Below are positions 49,299-52,466 of a stretch of 64,000 bases of DNA, piece by piece. The position numbers were made by a program, and so were the translations under genes. The number at the start of each line of letters is the position of its first letter. Position 1 is the stretch's first letter. Source of the DNA: Hyphomicrobiales bacterium (lineage in GTDB: Bacteria > Pseudomonadota > Alphaproteobacteria > Rhizobiales > Xanthobacteraceae); assembly GCA_017305715.1 (NCBI GenBank), contig JAFKKG010000009.1, positions 310,001-374,000 on the forward strand, in the 5' to 3' direction. The notes under the pieces were generated by a model that saw only the letters and a list, made by a program, of their open reading frames with translations, made no database searches and was not told the origin of the DNA.

Positions 49299-52200
49299 AT
49301 GCCCAACAAGATGTTGATCGATGCCACCCACCCGGAAGAGACCCGGGTCGTTGTGGTCCGCGGCAATCGCGTCGAAGAATTTGATTTCGAGACCGCCCAG
49401 CGCAAACAGCTACGCGGCAATATCTACCTCGCCAAGGTCACGCGCGTAGAGCCGTCACTGCAGGCGGCCTTCATCGAATATGGCGGCAACCGCCACGGCT
49501 TCCTCGCCTTCAGCGAAATCCATCCCGACTATTACCAAATCCCGGTTGCCGACCGTCAGGCGCTGATCGAGGCCGACGAGCGTGCCCATCGCGAGGCCGA
49601 GGAAGAGAACGAGAACCGCTCCTCCAACCGCCACCGCGGCCGGTCGCGCCACCGCAACGCCCGCCGCCGCGGCCATGGCGAACGGGTCCAGAGCGACGTC
49701 GTCGAGAATGCCGCGATCGATCCCGCGCACGCCGCCCAACCCTATGAAGGCGAGGCGCAACGCCTGCATGAAGGCGTGCACCCCGACGAAACCCACGCCC
49801 ACGAGGCAGTTCATCACGATCATGAACATGGTCTCGAACACGGCCATGAGGCGCATGATCATGATCATGATCATGTCCATGACCATGAACACGCGCCTGA
49901 CCATTCCCATGACCACGATCACGAGCCGCATCATGACCACGGTCATCCCCATGACCACGGTCATTCCCATGAGCATGATCACCACCATGCCGATCACGGC
50001 CATGATCACGCCCCGACCGAAGCGGCGGCCGTGCCGCAGCCGGCGGACGCCGCACCGACCGAGGCCGTCGCGCCTGCTCCGGAAGCACCGGAAAGCCACG
50101 CCGAGCACGCGCACGACGTGCGGCACGATGAGGAACACGCGCTCGAAAACGCCGCCCATGCCGATGATGCCCACCGGGCCGAGCACGCCGGTGAAGAATA
50201 CGCCGCCGCCCCTACCCAAGACCGCGGCCCGGCGCCGGAAGGCGACGAGCACGATGATGATGACGACGATGGCGACGATGCCGAAGAGGAAGTCGTTGAA
50301 TCCGTCGGCGGCGACGACGTGCTGGAGGAAGTGCCCGAGCGCGCCTTCCGTCCGCGCCGCCAGTACAAGATCCAGGAAGTCATCAAGCGCCGCCAGGTCA
50401 TGCTGGTCCAGGTCGTCAAGGAAGAGCGCGGCAACAAGGGCGCGGCGCTGACCACCTATCTGTCGCTGGCCGGCCGCTATGCCGTGCTGATGCCCAACAC
50501 CGCGCGCGGCGGCGGCATCAGCCGCAAGATCACCTCTGCCCAGGACCGTTCGCGGCTCAAGGAAGTGGTGCAGGATCTCGACGTGCCGGAGGGCATGGGC
50601 ATCATCCTGCGCACCGCCGGCGCCTCGCGCACCAAGCCCGAAATCAAGCGCGACTTCGAATATCTGATCCGCATGTGGGAAACCGTGCGCGACATGACGC
50701 TGAAGTCGCAGGCTCCGACGCTGGTCTACGAGGAAGGCTCGCTGATCAAGCGTTCGCTGCGCGACCTCTACAACAAGGAAATCGACGAGATTCAGGTCGC
50801 CGGTCAGGCCGGCTATGACGAAGCCCGCGACTTCATGAAGATGCTGATGCCCTCGAATGTGCGGGCGGTCCGGCAGTATCGCGACGGCCAGCCGCTGTTC
50901 TCGCGGATGGGTGTCGAAAGCCAGCTCGACGCGATGTTCTCGCCGACGGTGCAACTGCGCTCCGGCGGCTACATCGTGATCAACCAGACCGAAGCTCTGG
51001 TCTCGATCGACGTCAACTCCGGACGTTCGACCCGCGAGCACCATATCGAGGACACCGCGCTCAAGACCAATCTCGAGGCGGCCGAGGAAGTCGCGCGGCA
51101 GCTCCGCCTGCGCGATCTCGCCGGCCTGATCGTGATCGACTTCATCGACATGGACGAGAAGCGCAACAACCGCGCGGTCGAACGCAAGCTTTCGGACTGC
51201 CTGCGACAGGACCGCGCCCGTATCCAGGTCGGCCGCATCTCGCATTTCGGCCTGTTGGAAATGTCGCGCCAGCGCATCCGCGCCAGCGTGCTGGAGAGCT
51301 CGACCGAGCCCTGCCCGCATTGCGGCGGCAGTGGACATGTCCGCTCGGTGTCCTCGGTGGCGCTGCAATTGCTGCGCGGCATCGAAGAAATCCTGATGAA
51401 GGGCGCGACCCACAATCTGGTGGTGCGCACCCGCACCGACGTCGCGCTCTACGTCCTCAATCACAAGCGCGGCCATCTGCGCGATCTCGAAAACGCCTTC
51501 AAGGTCACGCTTGCGGTGGTCGCCGATGCCACCGTCGCCGGCCAGCAATCGTTCATTATCGATCGCGGCGAACAGGTCCACACGCTGGAAGCCGCCAAGG
51601 CGCTGCTCGCGGCGCAGGCCGCCGCCTCTCCGTCCCAGACCGAGGAGGTCTATGACGACGAAGAGCCCTTCGATATCGAAGGCGAGATCGAGACCGAGGA
51701 AACCGAAGGCCTGGCCGAGGAAGCCGCCGGCACCGAGGAAGCGGCCAGCGAGGGCGAAGGCGATGGCCACCGCCGCAAGCGGCGTCGCCGTCGGCGCGGC
51801 CGTGGCGAGCCGCGTGAAGGCGGCGCCCCGCGCGATGATCATGACGCCATGCGTGCGGCCCCCGAAGCCGTCGAGGGCGTGGTTGCCGACGATGGTGAAG
51901 GCGATGAAGACGAGGGCGACGAACAGCCCGGCGTTGCGCGCGCCGAACAGGACCCGAAAGGCGAGCGGCGCCCGCGGCGCCGCGGTCGTCGCGGCGGACG
52001 CCGCCGGCGCGGCAACGGCCCGGAAGATGGTCTCGCCGGTTCAATCGCGGACGAACTCGGGCCGACCCCGGCTCCGGAAGTAACCAGCGCCGTCGCCGAT
52101 TTCGACGGCGGCTCGCATGAGCCCGCGCCGACATTGGTCGAACCCGAACCGGTCTCGCCGCCGCAACCGCAATGGCAGCCTGCGGAACATCAGGCTGCGC

Positions 52201-52466
52201 CGGTGACCGTCAGTAGCGCCCCCAGCGCAGAGGAAACCGCGCATGAGGCCGACCGGGCCGCCGCACGGCGGCGTTCGACCGTGCGCGAAAAAGTCTCGTT
52301 CATGACCAGCGCCCCATCCGAACCGGCGCCGGCCGTCAGCCACGCCGTACCCGAGGCGGTGACGCCTCCCGCTCCCGCACCCGTCGAACCGGCGCCTGTC
52401 GCCGCCAGCGAAGCTGCGCCGCGCAAGGCCGGCTGGTGGTCGCGGCGTTTCGGCAACGGCGAATAG
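49299..52466 (+). CDS. rne: Ribonuclease E with large histidine-rich insertion in the S1 domain
   Basis: The product is 1055 aa starting MPNKMLID, the conserved start of alphaproteobacterial RNase E; frames 5' of 49299 are not conserved. The S1 domain begins near residue 36 and is interrupted from about residue 100 to 350 by low-complexity sequence: a basic patch, a His-rich run (166-238, about 34 His of 73), an Ala/Pro/Glu part and an acidic DDDDDD block. The fold resumes at QYKIQEVIKRRQVMLVQVVK. The catalytic DNase I-like domain follows, with catalytic Asp residues in SIDVNSGR and VIDFIDMDEKRN, then the zinc-link PCPHCGGSGH. The C-terminal scaffold has Arg-rich RNA-binding ([12 protein letters not shown]) and ends with a GWW motif (52431-52439). 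It processes rRNA, tRNA and mRNA on the membrane or in condensates. Confidence 0.93.
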   Translation: MPNKMLIDATHPEETRVVVVRGNRVEEFDFETAQRKQLRGNIYLAKVTRVEPSLQAAFIEYGGNRHGFLAFSEIHPDYYQIPVADRQALIEADERAHREAEEENENRSSNRHRGRSRHRNARRRGHGERVQSDVVENAAIDPAHAAQPYEGEAQRLHEGVHPDETHAHEAVHHDHEHGLEHGHEAHDHDHDHVHDHEHAPDHSHDHDHEPHHDHGHPHDHGHSHEHDHHHADHGHDHAPTEAAAVPQPADAAPTEAVAPAPEAPESHAEHAHDVRHDEEHALENAAHADDAHRAEHAGEEYAAAPTQDRGPAPEGDEHDDDDDDGDDAEEEVVESVGGDDVLEEVPERAFRPRRQYKIQEVIKRRQVMLVQVVKEERGNKGAALTTYLSLAGRYAVLMPNTARGGGISRKITSAQDRSRLKEVVQDLDVPEGMGIILRTAGASRTKPEIKRDFEYLIRMWETVRDMTLKSQAPTLVYEEGSLIKRSLRDLYNKEIDEIQVAGQAGYDEARDFMKMLMPSNVRAVRQYRDGQPLFSRMGVESQLDAMFSPTVQLRSGGYIVINQTEALVSIDVNSGRSTREHHIEDTALKTNLEAAEEVARQLRLRDLAGLIVIDFIDMDEKRNNRAVERKLSDCLRQDRARIQVGRISHFGLLEMSRQRIRASVLESSTEPCPHCGGSGHVRSVSSVALQLLRGIEEILMKGATHNLVVRTRTDVALYVLNHKRGHLRDLENAFKVTLAVVADATVAGQQSFIIDRGEQVHTLEAAKALLAAQAAASPSQTEEVYDDEEPFDIEGEIETEETEGLAEEAAGTEEAASEGEGDGHRRKRRRRRRGRGEPREGGAPRDDHDAMRAAPEAVEGVVADDGEGDEDEGDEQPGVARAEQDPKGERRPRRRGRRGGRRRRGNGPEDGLAGSIADELGPTPAPEVTSAVADFDGGSHEPAPTLVEPEPVSPPQPQWQPAEHQAAPVTVSSAPSAEETAHEADRAAARRRSTVREKVSFMTSAPSEPAPAVSHAVPEAVTPPAPAPVEPAPVAASEAAPRKAGWWSRRFGNGE
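49794..50012 (+). repeat. Histidine/aspartate-coding tandem-like repeat inside rne
   Basis: A stretch dominated by CAT/CAC and GAT/GAC/GAG codons with HD, HDH and DHGH repeats. Part of it (49854-49875) is a near-perfect CATGAT hexamer repeat, so copy number may vary by slippage in multiples of 3 or 6 nt without breaking the frame. Confidence 0.8.

Follow-up and report, generated by a model that had tools for sequence, protein, structure and literature searches.

The RNase E gene and its domains

The window, meaning the whole 64,000-nucleotide stretch that was analysed, carries the gene rne on its forward strand (Table 1). RNase E is the principal RNA-degrading enzyme in Bradyrhizobium and related genera and is considered the initiator of much mRNA decay in these bacteria. 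The identification of the product as RNase E, already made in an earlier note on this DNA, is confirmed by several matches. Pfam finds the RNase_E_G catalytic domain (PF10150; 336.7 bits, E = 1.3e-100) and a thioredoxin-like domain (PF20833; 92 bits, E = 2.6e-26), NCBIfam TIGR00757 is matched at 518.7 bits (cut-off, 325.95), and the structure of E. coli RNase E (2vmk) matches at E = 8.9e-124. The product also has a long, variable C-terminal tail and a CPHC motif that corresponds to the CxxC Zn-link of RNase E, a name taken from section 8 of PMC12510024. None of the neighbours of rne resembles a metal gene when their translations are read by eye, and Rfam gave no match at gathering scores anywhere in the window. 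A 795-aa open frame runs antisense to rne and spans the insert described below (49455-51842, - strand). We did not take it as a gene, as such frames are common in high-GC coding DNA.

Table 1. Features of the rne gene and its product (positions are those of the window)
Feature	Position	Strand	Basis
rne, RNase E, 1055 aa	49299..52466	+	ATG start at 49299, stop at 52466
S1-domain insert, residues 79-355, 277 aa, 50 His	49533..50363	+	Anchors in alignment
Conserved insert start with predicted helix, residues 83-109	49545..49625	+	AlphaFold; near-identical in six close sequences
Arg-rich patch, residues 107-129	49617..49685	+	Sequence
His/Asp block, residues 166-238, 34 His of 73	49794..50012	+	Translation in the rne frame
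18-bp tandem repeat within the His block, 2.3 copies, 95% match	49932..49972	+	TRF
Second, weaker His cluster, residues 267-318	50097..50252	+	His positions, alignment
Poly-acidic run, residues 319-331	50253..50291	+	Sequence
Conserved insert end, returning into S1, residues 332-355	50292..50363	+	Within the stretch aligned to 4OXP
Zn-link CPHC, residues 672-675	51312..51323	+	Both Cys (C672, C675) unchanged across an alignment of 54 sequences

An enlarged insert in the S1 domain

Aligned with E. coli RNase E (2vmk), the product matches up to residue 80 and again from residue 356. The E. coli protein spans only 79 to 88 there, ~8 residues against the 277 of the insert. Caulobacter RNase E (4OXP) aligns on both flanks of the insert, to residues 1-94 and 317-467, and the matched stretches of its chain (21-114 and 128-276) lie 13 residues apart where their counterparts here are separated by 222. 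Because 4OXP aligns on both sides, the insert, which parts S1 into two halves and is flanked on each side by sequence homologous to 4OXP, is the known alphaproteobacterial S1 insert, much enlarged. Both alignments thus support the earlier proposal that an insert splits the S1 fold, but its extent, given then as about residues 100-350, is larger.

That S1 insertions occur in alphaproteobacterial RNase E, as the note had also stated, is documented in passages of PMC4245959, which describe them as ~50-150 aa long, charged and predicted to be disordered. The insert of rne shares its place in S1, its homologous flanks and its charge with the Caulobacter insert. However, it is longer than the published range, and no His block is aligned in 4OXP. 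We found no description of a His-rich S1 insert of RNase E in the literature searched, which comprised listings and passages of open-licence PMC papers.

The two ends of the insert differ little among close species, and the variable middle holds the His block and the weaker His cluster. AlphaFold predicts the helix at the insert start with pLDDT values of 58, 78 and 69 in blocks of 10 residues, in a model that is of low confidence overall. Residues 110-365 have no secondary structure and a pLDDT mostly below 50, in a model that is poor as a whole (mean pLDDT 58.1, pTM 0.37) and in which the S1 core itself falls below 50; it is too weak to locate the insert. The insert may be disordered. Pfam gave one match on the insert, under its cut-off (E = 0.036), and a PDB search with the insert gave no match at E 10.

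Composition of the His/Asp block

The earlier count of about 34 His in residues 166-238 is exact in the rne frame. The 73 residues comprise 34 His, 13 Asp, 7 Glu, 6 Ala and 5 Gly, for a make-up of 47% His, 18% Asp and 10% Glu. No other 73-residue stretch of the product exceeds the block in His, and 165-237 ties with it. Among all stop-to-stop frames of at least 100 aa in the window, the next richest stretches contain 16 His (opposite strand, same place) and 13. When the window's own genome was searched with the His segment, rne and its opposite strand were the sole matches, a weak negative because of composition filters. With tblastn against plasmids (41 records), none of the matches listed, the best 20 of 41, covers 80% of the query.

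The 34 block His codons are 21 CAT and 13 CAC. In the TRF output, a 12-bp unit matches at 62%, alongside the 18-bp unit listed in Table 1, whose high match probably reflects recent repeat growth. A clean (CATGAT)n core, as had been suggested earlier, is therefore not present, with the 12-bp unit matching at 62% and CAT and CAC mixed; the variation that the note thought possible between strains is seen in the block between close species. The opposite strand at 49786-50016 (- strand) is also His/Asp-rich, with 16 His in 73 residues of a 233-aa open frame. This run is most likely a by-product, since a CATGAT-type repeat is near-palindromic.

Distribution of His-rich inserts

We extracted 287 rne sequences, the window included. 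The genus draw had 116 genomes with a match, of which 70 were fetched and 69 extracted. The family draw had 99 genomes, from which 69 loci were extracted besides that of the own genome, and the class draw had 139, with 69 loci fetched besides the own and 68 extracted. The genus of the draw appears to be Bradyrhizobium, because the core of the named Bradyrhizobium locus L002 is 98% identical and L124 and L132 equal named Bradyrhizobium loci. Rows L127 and L243 were left out, as the anchor was not found. L153, L156 and L159 were left out of the group counts as same-genus rows in the family draw; the genomes of L153 and L159 had already been fetched, whereas L156 (41 His) is no such repeat, so that one His-rich genus sequence is omitted. 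Six duplicates were removed for the 116/119, 24/160 and 76/76 counts and for the codon-change shares over 52 and 14 pairs given below. They are still included in the per-group His counts, the comparison by HypB, dN/dS, the codon shuffles, the tree and the comparison of 142 tails.

At least 10 insert His are present in 116 of the 119 distinct sequences of Bradyrhizobium and its sister genera (named Bradyrhizobium, Afipia and relatives added), against 24 of 160 from other Alphaproteobacteria. An assembly error that left close relatives without the His run, a possibility raised in the note, is ruled out as the source of the block by this clade-wide presence. Counting His across relatives, as the note proposed, gave 21-53 insert His in all 69 sequences of the genus draw (median 32), and L002, outside that draw, has 19. 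The number then declines with distance. Sister genera (core identity at least 88%) have at least 10 insert His in 23 of 26 cases with a median of 21, more distant family members (core identity 76-82%) in 12 of 40 with a median of 6, and other families of the class in 7 of 68 with a median of 1. Across the clade the range is 5 to 53.

On a tree of 283 rows, the His-rich label, defined as at least 10 His in some 73-residue stretch, changes 23 times, compared with ~75 times when labels are shuffled. The starred branches force at least 5 changes, on a quick FastTree tree of weak support in which 100 of 192 inner branches fall below 80. The His-rich insert is thus a clade character that is also found elsewhere, for example in L187, L210, L233, L247 and L266.

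Three family members with 88-91% core identity (L178, L180 and L181) have just 5-8 insert His and may mark a point of gain or loss of the His block. In L247, L266 and L233, from other alphaproteobacterial families, similar His/Asp runs lie at a different place in the insert and are possibly independent gains. Additionally, the metagenome-assembled genome titled Rhodopseudomonas (L035) has 80% core identity to the window, compared with 93% for the Rhodopseudomonas locus L007, and may be misnamed.

Constraint and signs of repeat growth in the insert

His richness is restricted to the S1 insert and is not a general bias of the gene. In all 76 distinct clade sequences with the tail in hand (77 of 77 with duplicates included), the insert surpasses the tail in His when the richest 73 residues of each are compared, and the median His fraction in the clade is 0.108 for the insert and 0.007 for the C-terminal tail. 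None of 142 tails reaches 10 His per 73 residues, the highest having 7. The difference is slight in 65 more distant sequences, where insert His lies above the tail in 39 and below it in 9.

Over 53 pairs, duplicates included, dN/dS is 0.27 for the insert, 0.29 for the His-poor tail and 0.02 for the start of the catalytic core, and the gap fraction is 0.084 for the insert and 0.057 for the tail. As the dN/dS values of insert and tail are equal, constraint as such is not peculiar to the insert. For His codons in the block, synonymous changes make up 0.49 (0.42-0.56) of all changes across 52 pairs, and 0.55 (0.39-0.69) when the 14 pairs with at least 80% block identity are taken, against a neutral expectation of 0.11-0.22 for transition/transversion ratios of 1-4. 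In the same 14 best-aligned pairs, the share is 0.53 for Asp, 0.62 for Glu and 0.41 for Gln. Over the 52 pairs, Asn (0.16) and Gln (0.17), both rarer in the block, are near neutral, and alignment bias may add to these low values. One gapless pair points in the opposite direction, with 8 non-synonymous and 0 synonymous changes at His codons. We also considered whether His is more strongly constrained than Asp and Glu. Such a difference is seen over all pairs and in 16 pairs of 60-80% block identity but not in the 14 pairs of at least 80%, and the His edge in the wider sets may be alignment bias. Because Asp and Glu are likewise kept in those 14 pairs, what selection maintains seems to be the mixture of His and acidic residues, with no priority for His.

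The block is remodelled rapidly. Two loci whose cores are 99% identical to that of the window (L082 and L083) have 33 and 29 insert His against the window's 50, and the window block has additional HDH units relative to both. In 27 of 121 sequences the DNA is more repetitive than its codon shuffles (p <= 0.05); in the window the repetition is borderline, with 16 of 200 shuffles reaching it. A pure microsatellite is weakened as an explanation, since the codons are mixed and shuffles match the repetition in 94 of the 121 sequences, and some slippage in the block is likely. Across the 69 genus sequences, HxH occurs 1.39 times as often as expected and HH only 0.52 times. The window insert has a stronger HxH excess, with 24 observed against 15 expected. 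His spacing at i+5 is also enriched (1.34), and the HxH excess is not clear in 5 of 11 His-rich inserts tested outside the clade (L187, L197, L205, L210 and L221). HxH spacing may be a product of repeat growth.

Likeness to metal-binding proteins and to Caulobacter RNase E

In composition, the block resembles metal-binding segments, as the note had supposed. Its His/Asp/Glu make-up is like that of the prokaryotic metal-binding His-rich low-complexity regions in PMC6821194, where 82 such regions of cobalamin-biosynthesis proteins average 53% His, 23% Asp and 9% Glu. A table in the passages covered lists ribonuclease E activity as an enriched category, and a His-rich RNase E is not described there. 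The block also forms a His/Asp-rich HxH array of the HypB type. B. japonicum HypB (PMC7055735) has 24 His and binds 9 Ni per monomer with a Kd of 2.3 uM, and its His-rich region is similar in composition. The His stretches of HypB in the genus resemble the block in the three loci that could be read, of four fetched. With the metal chaperones HypB, UreG and COG0523 the block has in common an HxH-rich stretch with Asp and Gly. However, it is internal and lies in a nuclease, not in a G3E GTPase, and a link to HypB was not found. The HypB family (TIGR00073) is absent among the 5 NCBIfam matches of the rne product at E 0.001.

The nearest functional comparison is the Caulobacter BR-body system, with which the common element is RNase E. 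There, as described in PMC12510024, RNase E(451-898) coordinates Cu2+ by His at a ratio of about one His for each Cu and does not bind Zn in vitro, and RNase E condensates keep PNPase active under Cu, in what its authors call a protective microenvironment. That fragment excludes the S1 insert, whereas the protein described here has a dense His array in its N-terminal half as a candidate metal ligand. The Caulobacter copper binding, which the earlier note did not cite, provides a precedent for the idea of metal and condensate acting together.

Possible functions of the His block

The His feature of RNase E is real, conserved in the clade and constrained in its make-up, and it plausibly binds metal. 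The reading we favour, to which we give about an even chance, is that the block is a low-specificity metal buffer on the degradosome that shields its enzymes from the wrong metals. The block would be a flexible ligand with many sites for transition metals, anchored within the S1 domain. In a tetramer, expected by homology, four inserts would bring ~200 His near the RNA-binding cleft and, if scaled from B. japonicum HypB, could hold tens of metal ions with micromolar affinity and little specificity. In degradosome condensates, the block would act locally to prevent Cu, Zn, Ni or Co from reaching the catalytic Mg sites and would likewise guard the CPHC Zn-link as well as partners like PNPase; rising metal might stiffen the condensate through it. 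This clade would then have equipped the S1 insert of a Caulobacter-type RNase E scaffold with a far larger array of ligands.

We count in favour of the metal buffer the density of His, Asp and Glu, the likeness to the His-rich regions of cobalamin-biosynthesis proteins and to HypB, the clade-wide presence, the restriction to the insert and the synonymous share at His codons, together with the HxH excess, the occurrence of at least 10 His in 7 of 68 inserts of other families and the Caulobacter Cu precedent. Against it we count that His is no more constrained than Asp and Glu in the 14 pairs, the gapless pair, the similar dN/dS of insert and tail, the wide His range, the signs of repeat growth, the i+5 spacing, the HxH-poor inserts outside the clade and the neighbours of rne without an apparent metal gene. 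The Caulobacter copper work counts on this side too: its fragment lacks the S1 insert, has about one His for each Cu and did not bind Zn in vitro.

The best rival to the metal buffer is a pH-tuned charge switch, although we consider it rather unlikely. An acidified cytoplasm would neutralise the insert, with its 50 His and 75 acidic residues, and so alter RNA access or condensation. By computation, the insert has a net charge of -51 at pH 7.5, -20 at pH 6 and -8 at pH 5.5, assuming a His pKa of 6.3. Furthermore, the acidic S1 insert of Caulobacter has a helix that reaches into the predicted RNA site, where its acidic residues may mimic RNA (PMC4245959). However, a charge switch alone does not predict the HxH excess and the HH deficit, and the cytoplasm would have to be much more acidic than pH 7. 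Acidity in nodules would not be a sufficient explanation by itself, because the trait is also present in loci titled Afipia and Rhodopseudomonas, which are not known to nodulate.

The block may instead be tolerated low-complexity growth, a spacer in which slipping CAY/GAY repeats are weakly purged and His has no specific job. We doubt that this is the explanation. It would account for an insert that evolves much like the tail in dN/dS and gaps, for the remodelling between species with 99% identical cores, for the repetition above codon shuffles in some sequences and for the 18-bp repeat inside the block. On the other hand, at least 21 His are kept in every genus-draw sequence, the equally variable tail remains His-poor, and the repetition in the window is borderline. 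The synonymous share for His is also well above neutral while those of Asn and Gln are near it over 52 pairs, a comparison open to alignment bias and to the higher Gln value in the 14 best pairs.

A bolder form of the metal reading makes the RNase E of this clade a metal-responsive switch. Metal on the His array would alter cleavage or condensation, and free Cu, Zn or Ni would set global mRNA turnover without a transcription factor. We regard this as improbable.

The insert could also be a protein dock or an RNA gate, recruiting a partner or shielding the RNA cleft with His as a mild polar residue. The well conserved insert ends agree with such a role, but they could suffice for it without the His block, and the block, judged from the alignment of close species, varies too fast for a sequence-specific dock. 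We think this very unlikely. The HypB-type nickel role implied by the note is not supported, and a nickel store for hydrogenase can be dismissed almost entirely, since for all the likeness of the block to the HypB His stretches of the genus, the window's own genome has no HypB over the cut-off (best 84 bits against 121.2), and insert His does not differ among the 69 genus genomes between the 37 with and the 32 without HypB (medians 31 and 32.5, p 0.42, kinship ignored).

The block has the look of a metal sponge within the enzyme, and such a sponge would couple the turnover of RNA to the handling of metals. In the literature searched, a link from metal through condensates to RNA turnover was found shown only for copper in Caulobacter (PMC12510024). 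If RNase E carries a conserved metal-ligand array, a link between metal status, condensates and RNA turnover becomes testable in this clade, where the His feature is large and could be deleted without touching the catalytic core. The native RNase E of these bacteria may also stick to nickel resins and carry metal of its own.
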